From CBDUXZ01 sp965371325 [NCBI: uncultured bacterium] (GTDB lineage Bacteria > JAUYMQ01): a stretch of 12,271 nucleotides of DNA. Where the stretch lies: NCBI GenBank assembly GCA_965371325.1, contig CBDUXZ010000020.1:1-12271 (forward strand), given 5' to 3'. Each line of letters starts with the position of its first letter. Position 1 is the first letter of the stretch. A program made the translations under genes and the position numbers. Positions 1-12,271 of this stretch are shown piece by piece. The notes under the pieces are model-generated. The model was not told the DNA's origin and searched no databases. It saw only the letters and a program-made list of their open reading frames with translations.

Positions 1-101
1 CGCACGCTCGCCCCGTGGGCGATGTGACGAAGTTTCGGATTGCCCGTGGCCCGGGCGACGGCAATCACCTCCCGGCGTTCGGCCATGCGATCGATACTCA
101 C
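1..101 (-). CDS. 5' end of an unidentified operon gene (partial)
   Basis: Only the first 33 codons are in the window; the gene continues past the left edge. The start is taken as the GTG at 99-101, which overlaps the TGA stop of the flippase gene (98-100) as a GTGA junction. A GGGGGA ribosome-binding site at 108-113 lies 6 nt before it. An in-frame ATG at 84-86 is possible but sits about 21 nt from that site. The peptide begins MSIDRMAERREVIAVARATG and shows no signal peptide or membrane segment. I do not recognise the family. Tight coupling to the flippase suggests another protein of the same surface-polysaccharide pathway, but that is inference from position only. Confidence 0.6.
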   Translation of the reverse strand, partial: MSIDRMAERREVIAVARATGNPKLRHIAHGASV

Positions 102-1465
102 GGCGCTTCCCCCGGACCCGCCTTTGGCGGAAGCGGCCCGGCGCCCGCCGTTCCGAGGAACGGGAGCGCACGCTGGATCATCCAAACCACGAGCACGTTT
201 CCGGAAAGCGTTCCGGCGAGATACGCCCAGGCGGAGCCCGTGGCCTGCAGTTTCGGAACAAGCATGATCCCCGCCGCCACCATCACGACCGCCTGGACGG
301 CGTTCCCCCAGGTGCTCACCCCGGGCCGCCCGATCGAGAGCGTGGCGGGACGGGTCCAGATCGTGAGGTTCGCCACCACGAAGGCGGCCAGGAGCACGTA
401 GCATGCCGGGAGCGCCAGCAGAAAATCAGACTTCACGGTGAAGGCGAGGATCGGACCGGCGAAGAGCGCCATCAGCGCTGCGGCCGGGAGCGAATACACT
501 GCCATCGCCCCCCCGATGCGCCGGATGAGGCGCCTTAGCTGGACCGGATCCCCCATCGCGTGCATCCGCGACATCGCGGGGAAGACCACGTAGCCGAGGG
601 GCGCTGCGAAAACGCCCAGGAGGTTTGAGAAGCTCATCGCAATACGGTAGTAGCCCGCTGCCTCGGGCGAGGCGAAGTAACCGAGTATGAGCATGTCCGC
701 ATGCTTGTTGAGCGACTTCAAGTAGCCCGAGAGGTTCGTCTGGAAAACGAAGCCGCCCATGCGCGTGACCTCCGGCCAGAGTGGCGCCGGCCGCCAGGGG
801 CCCAGCTTGCGCAGAAGCGGCCATGCGAATGCCTGCACGAGAATCGTCGTGACCGCGGCGCTCGCCAGAAAACCCCATACAACCCCCACCAGGCCCCAGA
901 ACAGACCAACCCCCGCGAAAGCGAGATCGCAAACGCCCTTCGTCGAGCGATAGATTCCCAGAAGCCGGAACTTCTCATGGACACGGAGCAGGGTTTTCGA
1001 GGTGCCGTTCATGATCTTGAGCAGAAGGATTATGGCGTAGAGGCGCATGAGCAGCGTGGCTGTCTCCTCCTGCGCCGATTCGAGATTGAAGAAAGAGCGC
1101 GCCACCCACGGCGCGATGAAAAAGATGGCGGTAACGGAGAGGAGCGTAAGAAAGATATCGGTGAGATAGCCTAGAATCACGACAGCCTGGGCCCGCGCAT
1201 AATCCTTACGCACGAGATCGCCGGAGAGGTAACGGACAATGGACTCCTCGACACGGACGTCCATGAACTCGTCGATGAAGCGCACGACCGTGAGGGAGAG
1301 CTGAAGGAGGCCGTAAAGCGCGGGGCCGAGAGTGCGGGCCGCGAGAATGGTGAATACAATCCCCGTTCCGAGGATCGTCATGTCCCCACCAAGGACGTAT
1401 CCGGTGTTCCTGAAGAGGCGGGCCCGGAAGCTTCCGGACGGCAGCAATCTCTCACGAAGACCCAT
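98..1465 (-). CDS. Wzx-like polysaccharide flippase (MOP superfamily)
   Basis: This 455-residue, strongly hydrophobic protein fits the polysaccharide/O-antigen flippase family, which moves undecaprenyl-linked oligosaccharides across the inner membrane. It has roughly 12 predicted membrane segments spread over residues 20-435. The first spans 22-43 (VLGGDMTILGTGIVFTILAA) and is followed by the RTLGPALYGLLQLSLTV stretch typical of the family (usual length 400-500). Around residues 245-290 the charged loop KSLNKHADMLILGYFASPEA resembles the middle segment of such transporters, where they describe subunits not controlling growth of the polymer. The tail after residue 438 is Pro/Gly-rich and probably cytoplasmic. 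An AAAGG motif lies about 8 nt before the ATG. The gene follows a glycosyltransferase with a 56-bp gap and overlaps the next gene by 4 bp. The substrate cannot be read from sequence; a general MATE-type exporter is less likely in this context. Confidence 0.85.
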   Translation of the reverse strand: MGLRERLLPSGSFRARLFRNTGYVLGGDMTILGTGIVFTILAARTLGPALYGLLQLSLTVVRFIDEFMDVRVEESIVRYLSGDLVRKDYARAQAVVILGYLTDIFLTLLSVTAIFFIAPWVARSFFNLESAQEETATLLMRLYAIILLLKIMNGTSKTLLRVHEKFRLLGIYRSTKGVCDLAFAGVGLFWGLVGVVWGFLASAAVTTILVQAFAWPLLRKLGPWRPAPLWPEVTRMGGFVFQTNLSGYLKSLNKHADMLILGYFASPEAAGYYRIAMSFSNLLGVFAAPLGYVVFPAMSRMHAMGDPVQLRRLIRRIGGAMAVYSLPAAALMALFAGPILAFTVKSDFLLALPACYVLLAAFVVANLTIWTRPATLSIGRPGVSTWGNAVQAVVMVAAGIMLVPKLQATGSAWAYLAGTLSGNVLVVWMIQRALPFLGTAGAGPLPPKAGPGEAP

Positions 1466-2805: not shown

Positions 2806-3873
2806 TCAGTGGGATCGCGAGGGGAGCTTCGTCCGGTCAGTGAATATGAACTTCTCGTAGGTGAGGCTGTCGAGCGCCAGCTCCGCAAACAGCTTCGCCC
2901 TGGGCTGCGTCCCGCTCACGCAGCCGTCGCAGGGGTAGAGCCCCTTGCGGCGCCCCTCGGTATGGGCGCGCCGCAGTGCGCGCATGGGCTCTCCGTTCCA
3001 GATCTCACGAAGCGACTGCTCGCGCACGTTGCCGAGATGAAGCTTCCCCTCGATGTCGGTGCAGCACGGGATCACATCGCCGTTCCAGTGAATCACGAGC
3101 TGTTTCCAGAGCGCGTGGCAGACCGTATTTACAGCGTCGGGCATCTCGTCGATCATGAGCCTGTTGATATCCTCCGCCTTGCCATCCCAAGTCCAGAGTT
3201 TCTTGACGAAGACCGAGTCCGGAGCCATGTCCTTCCAGTAGCCGGTGAAATCGTCCACCTCGGCCTCGGTTTCCGTCATCTTGATGAGCTGCAGCACGGT
3301 GAAGGGACCCCGCCCCGCACGCGCCTTCGTCGCCAGCATGTTCGTGATGTTCTGCCGAACGATTTCGAAGTCGCCGTTCTTCCGCACCTTCTCGTAGGTT
3401 TCCTTGATGGCGCCGTCCATGCTGAGAACGATGAAGTCGAGCCCCGAATCGACGACCTCCTGGGCTCGCTTCTCGTTCAGCATCGTGCAGTTGGTCGAAA
3501 GGCCGACCTGGAGACCCACTTTTTTCGCCTCGCGGACCATCTGGAACATCTCGCGGTGAACTGTTGATTCGCCCCAGGCGTGCAGATACACGAAGGTGGT
3601 TCCGTTCGCCGCGGCGTCCGCCACGATCTTCCTGAACAGTTCCATCTCCATGTTTCCCAGCTTCCGCTCCATCTCGGTAATCGGGCACATGATGCAGGCA
3701 AGATTGCACCGGTTGGTCAGCTCGATGCGAAGGTGCTTTGGAAAACCGGCGGACACCTCCCTGCCGCGCAGATAGTCGCTTGCAAGACGCCAGCGATTGC
3801 GCGCCTCCTTCAGCCGGAAAGTGCGGCGGTCGGTGTACTTAATCAGGTAGTAAAGCGAAGGGACGGTCTTCAT
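2806..3873 (-). CDS. Radical SAM / SPASM domain protein
   Basis: A 355-residue radical SAM enzyme. The N-terminal cluster motif CNLACIMC supplies C56, C60 and C63 for the 4Fe-4S cluster that cleaves S-adenosylmethionine. LHAWGES (98-104) matches the SAM-binding GGE-like strand, and VLSMDG (149-154) is the usual strand-4 segment. The C-terminal part is a SPASM/twitch domain: C252, then WNGDVIPCC (C270, C271), then GNVREQSLREIW, then CDGC (C315, C318), enough for at least one auxiliary cluster. Family members modify peptides, sugars or nucleotides, and the reaction here cannot be deduced. SPASM proteins of this layout do occur in surface-polysaccharide loci, so a modification of a sugar or a carrier is the simplest guess; a RiPP-maturing role is less likely because no precursor peptide is seen. 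The ATG at 3873 lies inside the end of the kinase gene (35-bp overlap). No later ATG precedes the cluster motif. Confidence 0.9.
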   Translation of the reverse strand: MKTVPSLYYLIKYTDRRTFRLKEARNRWRLASDYLRGREVSAGFPKHLRIELTNRCNLACIMCPITEMERKLGNMEMELFRKIVADAAANGTTFVYLHAWGESTVHREMFQMVREAKKVGLQVGLSTNCTMLNEKRAQEVVDSGLDFIVLSMDGAIKETYEKVRKNGDFEIVRQNITNMLATKARAGRGPFTVLQLIKMTETEAEVDDFTGYWKDMAPDSVFVKKLWTWDGKAEDINRLMIDEMPDAVNTVCHALWKQLVIHWNGDVIPCCTDIEGKLHLGNVREQSLREIWNGEPMRALRRAHTEGRRKGLYPCDGCVSGTQPRAKLFAELALDSLTYEKFIFTDRTKLPSRSH

Positions 3874-4870
3874 TGCTGTCGCTTATCCCCCGGACATAGC
3901 TCTCGAAGTTATCGAGGTAGCGTGCCTTGCGAGATCTTTCAATACCCCACGGATAATCCGTGGCTCCGTAAATATACTCCATTCCGATGCAGAGTCCCTG
4001 GTACCACCGGGGAATCCGCATCGCCCTGCAGTAGTCGTCCAGCCATGCGCGCACCATCCGTGCGTAGGGCCCCGGCCCTGAAAGGCTGTAGGTGATGCGA
4101 TCGGACGAAAAACCTGCTTCTAGGCCCTTCGCGTAGGCGGTGAACAGATGAAAGAGATCCCGCACCGGCAGACCGGCATCGAGACTTTTCGTCCAGTCGA
4201 GCACCGACACCGTTGCGTTATCGAAGTCCTGCCCGGTCGAGGGAACGTCGAGTAGGACGTTCGATACACTGTAATCGCCATGGGTCAACGTGAAGGGGAA
4301 CGTCCCCCCGACCAGCCCGGCCACGCGCTCGCGAATGCGCCGGAGGTAAGCGGTTGCCCCCGGCGACAACTCGCTCCCTTTTTCGAACCTCCGGATCGGC
4401 TCCAGAAACGTCTGCTCCGCGTTGTCGGCTGAGAAGGCCACCTCGTCGCGCGTCGCGACGTGAAGCTCCGTGAGCCAGCGGCATACCTTTCGTAGCGCCC
4501 CGAAGCCGCGGGTCGGAAAGCTGTGTAGCCGCGATCCCGGCAGTCCCTCGAGCATGAGGATCGTTTTTCCGCCGATCGCGCAGAGCGACACCGGCCTGGG
4601 AACCGCCGGGAGAAAGCCGGGCAGCGGCGACAGCCGCCTGATGATCCTCTCGAGATTCTCGTACTCGAGCCGGAGATACTCCTCACCCTCTCGCGTGCGG
4701 GGAAGCTTTATCACCAGATCGGGACGGCGAACATGCTTCTTCGACAAGACGAGGAAGGTGCTGATCCGCGAACCCGGGATCTGGACAAAGGCGATCTTTT
4801 CAGGCAGGGGGGTTCCGGGAAGCAGCTCCGTCCAGTTCTCGAGCAGATAGCGACTGAGCAGCGGGAACAT
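3839..4870 (-). CDS. APH/choline-kinase-like phosphotransferase
   Basis: A 343-residue protein with the eukaryotic-like kinase fold of aminoglycoside phosphotransferases. Visible landmarks are the lysine strand VIKLPRT (K55), the hinge region LMLEGLPGSRL (105-115), the catalytic loop LTHGDYSVSNVLLD (H197, D199, N204) and the metal-binding VSVLDWTKS (D225). These residues are intact, so it should transfer phosphate from ATP to a small hydroxylated substrate. Antibiotic resistance is an unlikely role here. Enzymes of this fold in envelope gene clusters phosphorylate sugars, amino alcohols or lipid-linked intermediates, but the substrate is unknown. A GGAGGG site lies about 8 nt before the ATG, only 20 bp after the methyltransferase stop, and the 3' end overlaps the radical SAM gene by 35 bp. 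The C-terminal part (residues 285-335) is rich in Tyr, Trp and Arg and has no recognised motif. Confidence 0.82.
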   Translation of the reverse strand: MFPLLSRYLLENWTELLPGTPLPEKIAFVQIPGSRISTFLVLSKKHVRRPDLVIKLPRTREGEEYLRLEYENLERIIRRLSPLPGFLPAVPRPVSLCAIGGKTILMLEGLPGSRLHSFPTRGFGALRKVCRWLTELHVATRDEVAFSADNAEQTFLEPIRRFEKGSELSPGATAYLRRIRERVAGLVGGTFPFTLTHGDYSVSNVLLDVPSTGQDFDNATVSVLDWTKSLDAGLPVRDLFHLFTAYAKGLEAGFSSDRITYSLSGPGPYARMVRAWLDDYCRAMRIPRWYQGLCIGMEYIYGATDYPWGIERSRKARYLDNFESYVRGISDSNEDRPFALLPD

Positions 4871-4890
4871 CGTGAGCCCTCCGCCGGCCT

Positions 4891-5838
4891 TCAGGGCTTC
4901 CGCGCAATCGCAATATACGATGGCGCGGCCACCGCGATGAGCCCTGCGTCAATGGCCGCGCCTAACAACACCCGCTTCCAACGGGCCCGAGGATGGCGGT
5001 AAACGATGTGAAAGTATCGAAGGGCCTCTTTACTGTCAAGAGAAACGAGTCCCTGGATATCGGTGAGATCAGGAAGCGGAAGAAAAAGCCGCACGTCGTC
5101 GAATCCGCGTCGCGAAATCCGGCCGCGCAAGGCGGGAAGCGTGGTGGAGAGTTTGCCGCGCTCGAGTCCCCCCAACGTAAAGGCCGGGCGCAACCGGTTG
5201 GGAACTCCAATCATGAGAGTCCCGCCCCTTCGCAGCAAGCGATGGGCCGCCCGAATGATTTCGTCGAGCGCATCCGCGCTCCCGTTGCTCGAACGTTGTC
5301 GCGACCAGGGGCCCACGAGCGCAACAAGTGAAAACTCCTCACGCGTGAACGGGAAGTCCGATACACCTTCGCCGCACACGATCGCGCTCACGTTCGCAAG
5401 TGACTCCTGTTCCGTCCTCACCCGCAGATACTGCGCCGCTTCCGGATCCTGCGCGAAGATCACAAGCTCCCGCGCCCCCCCCGAGAGGGCCGCCATGTGA
5501 GCGCCCCAGCGATCGCCCATGAGGAGTGCGGCGCCTTTCGACCCGGGCTCCACGAGAAATTGCCAGTCGCCAAGCCGCTCCGTGCGCACCGCGCTGAGCC
5601 GCGTCATGAGATCCCCCACGCCGAGCCGTTGCGCTTCGAAGCGGCCCCGGGCGGCCTGCAACCAGCCGCGCTCCCGCGCGTCACGCGCGAGTGGAAGCAG
5701 CGTCGGGGGGTGTTCGGGCGAAGCCCACACGACACCGTCCTGCAGGATCAGGCGGTGGCCACAGCTTCCGCATTCGTAGGCGTTGCCGGCCGGATGCACG
5801 ACCGCCTCACAGCGCGTGCAACGAAGCAAGAAGCTCAA
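4891..5838 (-). CDS. Zinc-ribbon methyltransferase-like protein
   Basis: A 315-residue protein starting at TTG (5836-5838). The start is supported by a GGAGGC site 6 nt upstream, by a TTGA overlap with the preceding glycosyltransferase stop, and by the protein-like sequence beginning there; the open frame runs further upstream only as a shadow of that glycosyltransferase. Residues 7-26 form a small zinc ribbon (C7, C10, C23, C26, CxxC-x12-CxxC). The rest resembles a class I S-adenosylmethionine methyltransferase: a motif I-like strand at ALLMGDRWGAH (104-114), an acidic strand end near 131, the HRLLRRGGTLMIGVPN segment (199-214) and the RRGFDDVRLFLPLPDL region (243-258) seen in polysaccharide-cluster methyltransferases. 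The glycine-rich motif I is divergent (GDRWG instead of GxGxG), so SAM binding needs testing and an inactive or regulatory relative is possible. It sits between a glycosyltransferase and a kinase. Confidence 0.72.
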   Translation of the reverse strand: MSFLLRCTRCEAVVHPAGNAYECGSCGHRLILQDGVVWASPEHPPTLLPLARDARERGWLQAARGRFEAQRLGVGDLMTRLSAVRTERLGDWQFLVEPGSKGAALLMGDRWGAHMAALSGGARELVIFAQDPEAAQYLRVRTEQESLANVSAIVCGEGVSDFPFTREEFSLVALVGPWSRQRSSNGSADALDEIIRAAHRLLRRGGTLMIGVPNRLRPAFTLGGLERGKLSTTLPALRGRISRRGFDDVRLFLPLPDLTDIQGLVSLDSKEALRYFHIVYRHPRARWKRVLLGAAIDAGLIAVAAPSYIAIARKP

Positions 5839-7065: not shown

Positions 7066-7084
7066 AAAAACCCCTCGCGGGACT
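7066..7084 (-). terminator. Possible weak attenuator hairpin
   Basis: Just after the arsC-like stop the minus strand reads TCCC, the GNRA-type loop GCGA, then GGGGTTTTTC. A short stem of three GC pairs plus wobble pairs, followed by U residues, could partly terminate or pause transcription between the first gene and the rest of the operon. The stem is too short for a confident terminator call. Confidence 0.22.
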
Positions 7085-7533
7085 TAGGATGACCCGTCGG
7101 AGGTGTCCGCCGCCTGTGCGCGAAGCCCCCCCGCAAGGCTCGCCACGCGTTTCTCTATCTCATCCCGCACGCTGCGGAAAACCTCGATTGCCTCGTCCGG
7201 CGCCGCCGCCGCGGGGTCTTCCAGCGGCCAGTGCCGGCTCTCTACTCCGGGCGGGAGGACGGGACAGCGGCCCCGGGCGTTGTCGCACAGTGTGATCACA
7301 ACGTCGGCTGCCCCGGCATCGGCAATCCGGAATTCCTTGGATGTCTGCGTCGCAATATCGATGTTCCGTTCGGCCATGACCTTGGGCGTGAGGGGGTGGA
7401 TGCCCTTGGGATCCAGCCCGCCGCTCGCGGCCTCCAGAACATCGCTCCCGATCGCCCGCGCAAAGGCCTCCGCCATCTGGCTACGCGCGGAATTGCCCGT
7501 GCAAACAAAAAGGACCTTTTTCCTGCCCGGCAT
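7084..7533 (-). CDS. arsC: Thioredoxin-coupled arsenate reductase / LMW phosphatase family
   Basis: A 149-residue protein of the low-molecular-weight phosphatase fold. The P-loop VCTGNSARS gives the nucleophile C11 and R17 (CX5R). TLCDNARGRC carries C83 and C90, spaced like the redox pair of the thioredoxin-linked arsenate reductases (C82/C89 in the staphylococcal enzyme), and HWPLEDPA supplies the general acid D106. All three cysteines make arsenate reduction to arsenite the best-supported activity; tyrosine phosphatases of the Wzb type lack that pair and usually end the motif DPY. The C-terminus is slightly longer than the usual 131-140 residues. A GGGGGAG site lies 4 nt before the ATG. No ArsR, ArsB or Acr3 gene is visible. 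The gene is the first of a polysaccharide operon, so a role on phosphorylated sugars or proteins is possible but unproven. Confidence 0.85.
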   Translation of the reverse strand: MPGRKKVLFVCTGNSARSQMAEAFARAIGSDVLEAASGGLDPKGIHPLTPKVMAERNIDIATQTSKEFRIADAGAADVVITLCDNARGRCPVLPPGVESRHWPLEDPAAAAPDEAIEVFRSVRDEIEKRVASLAGGLRAQAADTSDGSS

Positions 7534-10133: not shown

Positions 10134-11795
10134 ATGTCGGACAAGGGCGCCGGAGACGGCACGAAAACGCTTATCATCGGAATCGACGGCGGCACGTGGG
10201 CGCTTCTGGATCACTACGTCGCCGCCGGACACATGCCCGCAATGCAGCGAATCATGGAAGCAGGCGTTCGCGGGCCACTCCAGTCCACCGTCCCCCCCCT
10301 GACCTCCGCCGCCTGGACCAGCTTTCAGACCGGAAAATCGCCGGGAATGCACGGCGTCCTTGGCTTCTCGCTCCCCTCGGTGACCCGCGCCTTCGTCAAT
10401 TCGACCAGCATTCAGGGGAAGACCCTCTGGCAGCACCTATCGGACTTCGGGCTTACGGTCGGTGTCGTGAACTGCCCTGTCACCTACCCCCCCTACCCGG
10501 TCAACGGCTTCATGATCACGGGCCTTCTCACACCGCCGGGGAGTCCTAACTTCACCTACCCGCCCGAGCTCTCCGGCACCCTCGCGGGGTACCGCATCGA
10601 CGTTCGTATTCAGAACAATCCCTACGGTTTCCTGAGGGCCGATCAGAAGGTCGACGCCGAGGCGTTCTGGCGCGATCTGCACGAGGTCACCGCCCGCCGA
10701 ACGGAAACGTCGCTCCGGCTTCTGCGTGAGCGCCGCCCGGACGTTTTCATGGCCGCCTACACGGGGATGGATCGTATCTCGCACCTCTACTGGACCACGA
10801 TCGATCCCAAGTCGCCCGGTTTTGACGAAGGACATCCGCATGTGCGGGAAACCGTCAGGTACCTGGGTTCACTCGACAGCGCCATCGGGTCGTTTCTTGA
10901 AGCCGCCCCGGGCGCACACGTGTTCTTCGTCTCCGATCACGGGTTCCGCGCGCACCCGACGTTGAAGTTCCACATGAACGTTTTCCTGAGGGAAGCGGGA
11001 TTGCTTTCCACCACTTCCGAGAAGAGCGTCGCGGCGTCACAGAGCATGCTCAAGCATCTCGTTCCCGAGCCGGTGGCGCGGCGGCTGAAGACACTGCTGA
11101 AGCGCATCGCGCCGGAGCGGGCGCAGCAGCTGAAGGCCGCCATCGCAACGCCCATCGACTGGAAGCGCACGCAGGCCTTCGGCGTGCAGATGTACGCGCC
11201 CTTCGGCGGCATTCGTGTGAGCCTCGAGGGAAGAGAGCCGAACGGCATCGTCGCGCCCGGAACAGCCTACGAGGCGTTGCGTGACAAGCTCATCGCGGCG
11301 CTAAAACCCCTCCTCTACGACGGTGATCGGCCGGTCATCCGCAACGCGTGGCGGCGGGAGAAGGTCTTCGGAAGCGGCGTCGTCGAGCAAGTGCCGGACG
11401 TCGTCTTTGAAGTGCATGAGGAGCTGATCCCTTCGAACTACTTCTTCGATCGGCAGGAAGTCGTTACGTCGCTGACGGTGGGGAACCTGACGGGCATCCA
11501 CGCAATGGAGGGGCTTTTTCTCGCCTGGGGGCCCGGCGTTAGAAAGGGGGAGCGCTTCGAGGGGGCGGCGATCACCGATCTGGCGCCCACGATCCTTTAT
11601 GCGCTTGGCAAACCGGTCCCGAGCGACATGGACGGAAAGGTTCTACTCGGCGCGTTTACGGACGCTTTCACAGCCTCGCGCCGCATCGAGCGCGTCGACG
11701 TGGAGGGCGCGCCCTCCCGGGACGCATACGCGTATTCCGAGGAGGAGCAGAAGGTAATCGAGGAGCGGCTCCAGGCCTTGGGCTACTTCGACTGA
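10134..11795 (+). CDS. Alkaline-phosphatase-superfamily phosphodiesterase
   Basis: A 553-residue protein of the type I phosphodiesterase/nucleotide pyrophosphatase group, which hydrolyses or transfers phosphoesters with two metal ions. The metal and catalytic landmarks are in order: IIGIDGGTW (D18), PLTSAAW with probable nucleophile T57, MDRISHLYW (D213, H217), FFVSDHGF (D268, H269) and GIHAMEG (H456). The C-terminus EEQKVIEERLQALGYFD is a tail I recognise from many environmental members of this family. There is no signal peptide or membrane segment, so it is predicted cytoplasmic. Residues 300-350 form a charged helical insert. It has its own strong promoter after the glycosyltransferases, which suggests expression independent of the right arm. 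Possible substrates are nucleotide sugars, phosphoglycerol-type donors or a polyprenyl-linked intermediate; sequence alone does not decide. Confidence 0.85.
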   Translation: MSDKGAGDGTKTLIIGIDGGTWALLDHYVAAGHMPAMQRIMEAGVRGPLQSTVPPLTSAAWTSFQTGKSPGMHGVLGFSLPSVTRAFVNSTSIQGKTLWQHLSDFGLTVGVVNCPVTYPPYPVNGFMITGLLTPPGSPNFTYPPELSGTLAGYRIDVRIQNNPYGFLRADQKVDAEAFWRDLHEVTARRTETSLRLLRERRPDVFMAAYTGMDRISHLYWTTIDPKSPGFDEGHPHVRETVRYLGSLDSAIGSFLEAAPGAHVFFVSDHGFRAHPTLKFHMNVFLREAGLLSTTSEKSVAASQSMLKHLVPEPVARRLKTLLKRIAPERAQQLKAAIATPIDWKRTQAFGVQMYAPFGGIRVSLEGREPNGIVAPGTAYEALRDKLIAALKPLLYDGDRPVIRNAWRREKVFGSGVVEQVPDVVFEVHEELIPSNYFFDRQEVVTSLTVGNLTGIHAMEGLFLAWGPGVRKGERFEGAAITDLAPTILYALGKPVPSDMDGKVLLGAFTDAFTASRRIERVDVEGAPSRDAYAYSEEEQKVIEERLQALGYFD

Positions 11796-11912: not shown

Positions 11913-12271
11913 TCACGAAGTGGTTTCGGCCTGGGGGTCGGTCCAGTGGCATGTGAACTCGCAGAAGTCGTCGCCCCGTGTTCGGCATTTCGACTCATCG
12001 ACCCGCACGTTCTCCCCTCCCCAAATGCCCATCGCCTCCTCAATCCAGCCCAGCATCCCCATGCAAATCGCCCGGTGGGGGGTCCCAAAATCGATGATGC
12101 GTGAAACGGCGCTCTCAGGCCCGACAAGCTCGGCCTCGATCCTCCCCGTGTCATAGTACTGCTGCCAGAGGAGGGGACCCATCTTCAGAACGAATGCGGG
12201 ATCGTGCTCCTTCGCGAAGCTCTGCTGGACGCCTCCCGCGAGCGCCATCCGCGCCGTGTGGGCGCCCATCT
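11913..12271 (-). CDS. V4R / heme-NO-binding-like sensor protein, C-terminal part
   Basis: About 119 codons of a gene that enters from the right edge; its start is outside or at the edge (an ATG at 12267-12269 may be internal). The fragment contains YYDTGRIEAELVGPESAV and HRAICMGMLGWIEEAMGIWG, then ESKCRTRGDDFCEFTCHW, where C95, C103 and the GDxxCEF pattern match the C-terminal motif of the V4R/heme-NO-binding fold and related sensory domains. Such domains bind small hydrophobic ligands or metal and often regulate transcription or signalling. The gene is convergent to the phosphodiesterase and has its own terminator, so it is probably not part of the polysaccharide pathway. The remaining domains are not visible. 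Confidence 0.6.
   Translation of the reverse strand, partial: MGAHTARMALAGGVQQSFAKEHDPAFVLKMGPLLWQQYYDTGRIEAELVGPESAVSRIIDFGTPHRAICMGMLGWIEEAMGIWGGENVRVDESKCRTRGDDFCEFTCHWTDPQAETTS

Follow-up and report, generated by a model that had tools for sequence, protein, structure and literature searches.

A recurrent pair of methyltransferase-like and APH-family kinase genes, accompanied by a BtrN-like radical SAM gene in a probable bacterial glycan operon

Results

The operon and its three non-glycosyltransferase genes

The window, by which we mean the whole 12,271-nucleotide stretch of DNA analysed here, contains the genes for a methyltransferase-like protein (P0001), a kinase (P0002) and a radical SAM (rSAM) enzyme (P0003) in the setting listed in Table 1. 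The location of this trio between two glycosyltransferases, with a 20-bp gap between the P0001 and kinase genes and a 35-bp overlap between the kinase and rSAM genes, was confirmed as given in the preliminary description. The rSAM gene is separated from the downstream GT4 gene by 3 bp, and the TTG start codon of the P0001 gene overlaps the stop codon of the upstream GT4 gene as TTGA. A Pfam scan of the ten window proteins found a flippase and no ABC family in these 12 kb, and detected no nucleotidyltransferase or aminotransferase families. The product of the operon is probably a bacterial surface sugar polymer.

Table 1. Coordinates of genes and sequence features in the window
Feature	Position	Strand	Remark
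GT4 glycosyltransferase, upstream of P0001 gene	5835..7043	-	7043-5835
P0001, methyltransferase-like, 315 aa, zinc ribbon, degenerate SAM site (putative pseudo-methyltransferase)	4891..5838	-	
P0001 N-terminal zinc-ribbon cysteines C7, C10, C23, C26	5761..5820	-	
P0001 degenerate SAM motif I, GDRWG, residues 108-112	5503..5517	-	
P0002, APH-family kinase, 343 aa	3839..4870	-	PF01636
P0002 catalytic loop HGDYSVSN, H197-N204	4259..4282	-	
P0002 D225-W226, metal-binding, DFG equivalent	4193..4198	-	
P0003, rSAM enzyme, 355 aa, four-cysteine twitch-type auxiliary-cluster domain	2806..3873	-	Nearest solved fold BtrN
P0003 radical SAM motif CxxxCxxC, C56, C60, C63	3685..3708	-	
P0003 stretch with auxiliary-cluster cysteines C252, C270, C315, C318	2920..3120	-	
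GT4 glycosyltransferase, downstream of P0003 gene	1522..2802	-	
Wzx-like oligosaccharide flippase	98..1465	-	PF13440, PF01943

P0001 had initially been called a methyltransferase, a name that holds as a statement of homology, since the protein scores 101 bits (E 3e-30) against a profile of nine motif-intact zinc-ribbon methyltransferases, but not as a plain enzyme name, since its SAM site is degenerate. Motif I reads LLMGDRWG where [DE]xGxGxG is expected, neither motif IV nor the ribose-binding acid of motif II is conserved, and about 25 residues are absent; P0001 thus lacks both motif I and the acidic ribose-binding residue by which an active class I SAM methyltransferase is recognized. Within the cut-off of the Pfam scan, no methyltransferase family matched it with an E value of 0.1 or lower (a separate search placed Methyltransf_25 at E 0.1), NCBIfam gave no match to P0001 and, above its cut-offs, named neither P0001 nor P0002, a plasmid search with P0001 found no match, and a PDB search with P0001 alone returned nothing useful. 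Judged from its sequence, P0001 appears to descend from a class I methyltransferase of the zinc-ribbon kind and to have a SAM site that has degenerated, and because this site is broken, methylation of the window glycan is unlikely.

P0002 matches PF01636 (E 2e-11, 44.5 bits versus a curated cut-off of 23.2) and has retained H197-G-D199, N204 and D225-W226, which, together with C56-x3-C60-x2-C63 in P0003, bears out the earlier statement that the catalytic residues of both enzymes are intact. Its identity to relatives is 16-27%, and its position in the kinase tree is without support. Searches with P0002 gave one weak match only in plasmids and, when used alone, nothing useful in the PDB.

P0003 contains the domains PF04055 (E 2e-16) and PF13186 SPASM (E 4e-20), and its cysteines C252, C270, C315 and C318, which are invariant across 31 aligned sequences, indicate along with CxxxCxxC a single auxiliary cluster. 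Structure modelling, which had been recommended for the trio, yielded an unusable model of P0002 alone (pLDDT 41), whereas for P0003 (pLDDT 87.8) the best solved fold was that of BtrN (PDB 4m7t; Z 23.4, 241 aligned residues, 2.7 A). BtrN was also the best match in a profile search (E 4e-37; next protein 2e-16), and BtrN, DesII and BlsE, radical enzymes that act on sugars or aminocyclitols, rank high in the fold list. Its cysteines and predicted fold mark P0003 as a BtrN-like radical SAM enzyme that carries a single auxiliary cluster.

The methyltransferase-like protein and the kinase form a widespread pair

Relatives of the kinase were sought in 1,754 genome look-ups, in which some genomes were counted twice and neighbours were disregarded. 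A methyltransferase-like domain was linked to 42 of 56 kinases over 51 contexts (25 fused, 17 adjacent) in seven phylum-level groups, these counts being taken over related members and hence not representing independent events. No methyltransferase was found for the other 14 kinases, including L219 and L221 (loci are numbered with the prefix L), which start near a contig end. Because the earlier, iterated methyltransferase profile was partly circular, having been built in part from regions later detected with it, the count was repeated with a strict profile from the nine motif-intact methyltransferases only, against which 700 shuffled decoys reached at most 3.9 bits. With this profile 37/56 kinases were linked, and the degenerate regions passed E 1e-3 in 28 and E 0.1 in 31 of 34 cases. 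The linked regions failing strict E 1e-3 were those of L141, L212 and L252, the second copies at L208 and L211, and the fused part of L213; the strict count retains L213 via a separate intact methyltransferase and drops the others (for L208 and L211, the copies at 13019 and 13428, respectively).

A two-sequence kinase profile had six matches in 247 Acidobacteriota genomes, all of them methyltransferase-linked and three as single fused proteins; the strict profile confirmed five of these links, while the sixth (L109/L141) rests on synteny with L146. Since the kinase profiles were grown from methyltransferase-linked members, only first-round and out-of-sample counts are unaffected by this choice. 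Among out-of-sample kinases (E < 1e-20) 10/14 were linked (strict 7/14), whereas APH kinases with lower scores were linked at 2/31 distinct places (strict 0/31), and Fisher tests against the 2/31 controls gave p values of 1.7e-5 and 0.0019, respectively, the threshold that separates the family from background kinases having been chosen after the scores were known. The controls comprised 32 loci at 31 places (L117-L120, L127, L170-L183, L187-L190 and L194-L202), L193 and L203 being repeats of places already counted. A joined P0001 and P0002 query found a match in one of 19 genomes, where the kinase adjoins an intact methyltransferase; searches in the phyla of genomes G003 and G016 gave 0/9 and 0/2, and Pfam detected no methyltransferase in L111 and nothing at all in L113. 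Taken together, the pairing of the methyltransferase-like gene with the kinase gene is genuine and widespread, and it recurs in other phyla, often as a fusion.

Loss of the SAM motif and variation in the kinase

SAM motif I is missing in 34 of 43 methyltransferase regions when scored by a strict pattern; L142, L143, L145, L146 and L148 retain parts of it. The nine regions with an N-terminal zinc ribbon have kept the motif and the 34 without a ribbon lack it, a rule that does not amount to nine independent cases, as the ribbon-bearing proteins may share descent. P0001 was the only protein seen in which the ribbon is kept but motif I is broken. On the tree the degenerate label needs six changes at best, and because the supported branches force only two, repeated loss of the motif is not established.

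The canonical kinase loop [HQ]xDx4N is kept in 32 of 42 relatives examined. The ten exceptions are seven fused proteins in which H replaces N (L157, L159, L160 and L214-L217), whose contexts show no GT4 or flippase match, and three kinases in which the catalytic Asp is missing; in one of these three, L204, the methyltransferase is intact.

Genomic setting of the pair and of the radical SAM gene

The Pfam list of 83 neighbour proteins is led by GT4, GT2, flippase and polysaccharide deacetylase, and a flippase is found in 24 of 51 kinase contexts versus none of 20 control contexts (21/39 when only contexts holding a linked kinase are considered). The pair thus often occurs in glycan clusters.

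The relatives of P0003 come from the best 80 of 138 loci with an rSAM gene, each spanning 3-21 kb; their proteins are at most 37% identical to it, apart from L074, a partial sequence at the end of a contig, at 40%. At these loci tblastn with the window kinase and methyltransferase-like protein found none at E 1e-3, and the unfiltered kinase profile reached E 0.19 at best. Conversely, no rSAM gene adjoins the pair in 39 module contexts, except that an rSAM fragment opens one methyltransferase-kinase reading frame (L151). An rSAM gene is present in 9/51 kinase contexts versus 0/20 controls (p 0.053, not significant), and six of the nine belong to one Acidobacteriota EPS cluster type, in which an rSAM/SPASM gene co-clusters with the pair at all six loci long enough to judge, 5-8 kb away; its product is only 29% identical to P0003. 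A scan of genomes with P0003 only gave nothing useful, and a viral scan returned 20 distant rSAM loci only.

The trio as a conserved unit, for which the preliminary description had suggested one modification route and advised a search for the genes as neighbours, was therefore rejected, with no kinase of the family at 80 rSAM loci and no rSAM gene beside the pair in 39 contexts. The methyltransferase-like protein and the kinase withstood this search, and independent scattering of homologues, named at the outset as a refuting outcome, applies to the rSAM gene but not to them; the co-clustering in one Acidobacteriota type rescues the original proposal in part. P0003 is part of the window operon and not of the methyltransferase-kinase module, and represents a local addition.

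Discussion

Our tentative reading, which we hold at a little short of an even chance, is that the operon would assemble a surface glycan for export by the flippase, in which P0002 phosphorylates the glycan, P0001 acts as a non-catalytic partner and P0003 is a separate BtrN-like sugar oxidase. P0002 would transfer phosphate from ATP to a hydroxyl on the lipid-linked glycan as it grows, P0001, with the SAM site seen to be degenerate in its sequence, may hold or present the acceptor or stabilize the kinase without methylating, and P0003 would most likely convert a sugar hydroxyl to a ketone. Since some kinases lack the canonical loop, or GT4 and flippase neighbours, not every member of the family need phosphorylate a glycan. 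A broader version is possible but rather doubtful: in a widespread lineage of glycan kinases the methyltransferase half may have become a subunit without catalysis that recognizes the glycan or activates the kinase, and in some clusters an rSAM enzyme would supply an oxidized sugar, giving an undescribed surface glycan with phosphate and keto sugars. P0001 would then be the one intermediate, with the ribbon present and the SAM site gone.

A kinase and a methyltransferase acting on one glycan have a characterized precedent, and in the cited papers the characterized enzymes belong to ABC-transporter O-antigen systems, where the chain is capped (PMC3482155, PMC11231755). The nearest known systems to the window pair are such chain terminators, WbdD and Klebsiella O7 ORF6, and a bifunctional methylphosphate terminator would have the kinase phosphorylate the chain end and P0001 methylate the phosphate, upon which growth stops. 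The order of methyltransferase and kinase domains matches, fusions with an intact motif I exist in the family (L144, 664 aa; L255, 691 aa), and in O7 ORF6 a methyltransferase is joined to a kinase that has the APH-like AmiN as its nearest fold (PMC11231755). However, motif I, motif IV and the ribose-binding acid are all lost from P0001, a flippase stands in the window while the two characterized terminators serve ABC-transporter pathways, and lengths of 315 and 343 aa would leave little space for a coiled-coil ruler, which makes a terminator improbable here. Alternatively, P0002 could be a sugar 1-kinase of a nucleotide-sugar pathway, with P0003 altering the sugar before transfer and P0001 as a relic. 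APH-family sugar kinases exist, maltokinase being weakly matched by the kinase profile (E 0.004, among the best 60 of 146 PDB matches), and the high rank of BtrN, DesII and BlsE would suit this explanation; yet no nucleotidyltransferase or aminotransferase family was matched among the ten window proteins scanned, and two GT4-kinase fusions (L250 and L253) and the frequent methyltransferase fusion point to a glycan or carrier, so that we consider it unlikely.

It is also quite unlikely that the three are independent tailoring enzymes sharing an operon, the link elsewhere reflecting the general methyltransferase richness of glycan clusters. Methyltransf_11 was indeed matched in 7 of the 83 neighbours, a quarter of the kinases are unlinked, and the rSAM gene and the pair are mostly apart, but 25 of the 42 linked kinases share a single reading frame with the methyltransferase-like domain, most of the linked domains belong to one recognizable type, as judged by the degenerate regions matching the intact profile, and the control kinases are rarely linked.

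If our favoured reading of a phosphorylating kinase with a non-catalytic partner is true, phosphate decoration of surface polysaccharides would be commoner than annotated, and the group would provide another case of an enzyme turned partner subunit. The related methyltransferase-kinase group is larger than the known terminators, about half of it lies beside flippases, and its methyltransferase is mostly broken; a literature search of CC-licensed PMC papers surfaced WbdD and found no description of the family.

Likened through its published description, Klebsiella pneumoniae O7 ORF6 shares with the window pair the order of methyltransferase and kinase, the APH-like fold and the glycan cluster, and fused forms occur in the window family too. 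ORF6 differs in being a single polypeptide that also includes coiled coil, CBM and GT modules, in serving an ABC-transporter pathway and in showing both activities in vitro (PMC11231755), whereas the window pair has two genes, a zinc ribbon, a flippase and a broken methyltransferase motif. WbdD of E. coli O9a has the same domain order and a glycan setting, but its kinase is described as eukaryote-like (PMC3482155), while P0002 is of the PF01636 APH type, and P0001 is, unlike the WbdD methyltransferase, without the SAM motif. WbdD was absent from the best 60 of 77 and the best 60 of 146 PDB matches of the kinase profiles, and the two may nonetheless be kin. WbdD-type membership of the window pair was rejected on the broken SAM motif: the terminator class combines intact kinase residues, which the pair has, with a SAM-binding methyltransferase domain, which it lacks.

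BtrN, a 2-deoxy-scyllo-inosamine dehydrogenase, shares with P0003 the CxxxCxxC motif, the four-cysteine auxiliary cluster and the fold (PMC9012708); the two are only about 21% identical when aligned by structure, and P0003 is distinguished by an N-terminal helical extension and a window in which no aminotransferase was identified beside it. Lastly, P0001 resembles the RlmA-type zinc-ribbon rRNA methyltransferase (PDB 1p91) in the zinc ribbon preceding a class I methyltransferase domain and differs in its glycan operon and lost SAM motifs. Although 1p91 was not the top-scoring PDB match (rank 15, E 5e-7), the profile of P0001 and the zinc-ribbon methyltransferases aligns to it over profile positions 5 to 174.

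The operon and its conserved part

The preliminary description had taken the order of a methyltransferase gene, a kinase gene and a radical SAM (rSAM) gene within a glycan operon to suggest one modification route. The gene layout holds, with the 20-bp gap and the 35-bp overlap exact by coordinates, and the first two genes represent a real module of a methyltransferase (MT)-like protein and an APH-family kinase, but the trio does not stand as a conserved unit. In the loci of relatives of the rSAM enzyme P0003 (best 80 of 138), the family of the window kinase P0002 was absent from all 80 by tblastn (E 1e-3), and a kinase profile with filters off reached a lowest E of only 0.19. We found no description of the MT-like/kinase module in the literature reached by our search.

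Genes of the window and in-frame fusions at loci of other genomes or plasmids (L-numbers)
Feature	Position	Strand	Remarks
GT4	7043-5835	-	first operon gene
P0001	5838-4891	-	MT-like; below every family threshold
P0002	4870-3839	-	APH kinase (family search)
P0003	3873-2806	-	rSAM enzyme with SPASM-family domain (family search)
GT4	2802-1522	-	downstream of P0003
Flippase	1465-98	-	last operon gene
PF01451 protein	7084-7533	-	149 aa
PF01663 protein	10134-11795	+	553 aa
V4R-domain protein	11913-12269	-	truncated by window end
MT-kinase frame	L151:7936-10092		
GT2-rSAM frame	L154:2243-4024		593 aa
GT4-kinase frame	L250:3289-5607		772 aa
GT4-kinase frame	L253:11749-14661		970 aa

Distribution and linkage of the kinase family

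A search with P0001 and P0002 in 19 genomes yielded one kinase (24% identity), which has an intact zinc-ribbon MT directly upstream (L107); this pair (L107/L108) sits in a Wza/Wzc/Wzx/Wzy-like cluster, the Wzy-type protein being recognized by Pfam and the others by eye. A two-kinase profile then gave six further kinases in 247 Acidobacteriota genomes, as single MT-kinase polypeptides (L111, L112, L113) or as MT-like, kinase and flippase genes (L109, L110, L114). With E-value limits that were not uniform across searches and phyla named from seed-record titles (G-numbers, seed genomes), kinase matches occurred in 18/317 Acidobacteriota genomes on repeat search, 23/161 Chloroflexota, 13/246 of the Planctomycetota-titled phylum (G012), 7/247 of the Desulfobacterales-titled phylum (G009; 8/148 via G006), 2/118 Nitrospirota, 1/52 SAR324 and 6/188 Myxococcota, where the two best-scoring kinases were paired and four lower-scoring ones unpaired; the phyla of G003 and G016 gave none (0/9 and 0/2).

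Among 56 kinases (E 1e-9) in 51 contexts of at most 20 kb, 42 were linked to an MT-like partner: 25 by fusion (L143-L145, L149-L151, L153, L156, L157, L159, L160, two each in L208, L210 and L211, L212-L217, L252, L255) and 17 by adjoining a separate gene (L108, L141, L142, L146-L148, L154, L155, L158, L204, L205, L245-L249, L256). No MT was found for the remaining 14 (L152, L206, L207, L209, L218-L221, two each in L250 and L253, L251, L254). Since the first MT profile had been built partly from regions that were counted, the test was redone with a strict profile of nine motif-intact MTs, which scored P0001 at 101 bits, recovered 28/34 degenerate regions at E 1e-3, gave at most 3.9 bits on 700 shuffled decoys and left 37/56 kinases linked. 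Lower-scoring APH kinases, used as controls, were MT-linked at 2 of 31 places (L174, L179) and at none by the strict profile, whose sole match (L120) lay on the opposite strand. Out-of-sample kinases from Chloroflexota and Nitrospirota (E <1e-20) were linked in 10/14 cases, 7/14 by the strict profile.

L208, L210 and L211 each hold their two fusions within one 20-kb context, and L208 and L210 carry an additional stand-alone MT-like gene. In L206 (L163), where no MT was found, the family kinase is in frame with a P-loop domain (thymidylate-kinase-like by eye). In L250 and L253 the kinase domain follows a GT4 domain in one frame, hinting that the kinase acceptor is a glycosyltransferase product.

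State of the module and its glycan setting

Our survey of 43 MT regions (42 modules and a second, separate MT in L213) found an N-terminal zinc ribbon in nine, all with motif I intact, and neither feature in the remaining 34. P0001 keeps the ribbon (C7, C10, C23, C26), its motif I reads LLMGDRWG and about 25 residues are missing; judged from its sequence, the methyltransferase half of the window module is broken. P0002 and 32/42 relatives examined have an intact catalytic loop; His replaces Asn in seven (L157, L159, L160, L214-L217), and the catalytic Asp is absent from three (L204, one copy in L208 and one in L210). The simplest reading is that most members would retain the MT-like part for a purpose other than methyl transfer, and the mechanism of the window module is likewise one that we infer. 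L204 (L161) mirrors the usual state, with a zinc-ribbon MT of intact motif I beside a kinase loop, HGHYGAEN, without the Asp.

WbdD of E. coli O9a adds first a phosphate and then a methyl group to the chain end (PMC3482155), and Klebsiella O7 ORF6 performs the same two reactions, its MT being paired with a kinase that is AmiN-like (PMC11231755); both belong to ABC-transporter systems, whereas the window operon has a flippase. GT4, GT2, flippase and polysaccharide deacetylase families ranked on top among 83 module-neighbour proteins, no ABC-transporter family was among the best 25 of their 58 Pfam families, and 21/39 contexts with a linked kinase had a flippase match.

The window also encodes, in front of the operon, a low-molecular-weight phosphatase/ArsC-like protein and, behind two divergent GT4 genes, a phosphodiesterase/nucleotide pyrophosphatase family protein, which could act on a phosphorylated glycan.

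The radical SAM enzyme

In the window P0003 lies directly behind P0002. With the P0003-family (A1) profile at E 1e-4, rSAM genes were present in 9/51 kinase contexts versus 0/20 control contexts (p 0.053), 5-8 kb from the pair in the five contexts measured. Six of the nine represent one Acidobacteriota cluster type, ordered Poly_export, unnamed gene, NusG-like, MT-like, kinase, flippase, deacetylase, two GT2, MT, rSAM/SPASM and GT2, with flanks assigned by Pfam in L146 and common to L141, while L245, L246, L247 and L249 were checked for profiled genes only; L142 and L248 are of the same type, their contexts being too short to show the rSAM gene. The L141 enzyme is 29% identical to P0003, below the best P0003 relatives. 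In L151 the rSAM profile recognizes the first ~100 residues of the MT-kinase frame (E 1.6e-5 and 4.6e-4), which look like a decayed copy, and a full rSAM gene lies 7.7 kb downstream. Radical enzymes thus enter MT-kinase clusters occasionally. L154 holds, in a cluster with an MT-kinase pair, a frame whose N-terminal half resembles a GT2 by eye, the other half matching the rSAM profile (residues 295-461).

The first genome scan gave no P0003 relatives; aligning P0003 with one plasmid homologue gave 138, of which the best 80 show 23-40% identity. A structure model from 31 sequences (pLDDT 87.8) had BtrN as the nearest solved fold (Z 23.4; DesII 21.8, SuiB 21.1, BlsE 20.5), and by family profile BtrN was far ahead (E 4e-37; second protein 2e-16). 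Four cysteines beyond the rSAM motif are invariant in the family alignment, which fits a twitch domain with a single auxiliary cluster (PMC9012708). Pfam annotation of 91 neighbour proteins of 22 relatives gave Radical_SAM (13), Glycos_transf_1 (7) and short-chain dehydrogenase (5). DegT-type aminotransferases directly adjoin P0003 relatives in plasmid records L001, L004 and L005, including the L001 perosamine synthetase, which we take to be of this type; the adjacency would be consistent with production of a keto-sugar as a transamination substrate. The BtrN-like fold and profile, the cysteines and the neighbouring genes therefore favor a sugar-oxidizing role, and oxidation of a sugar is our best guess for P0003.
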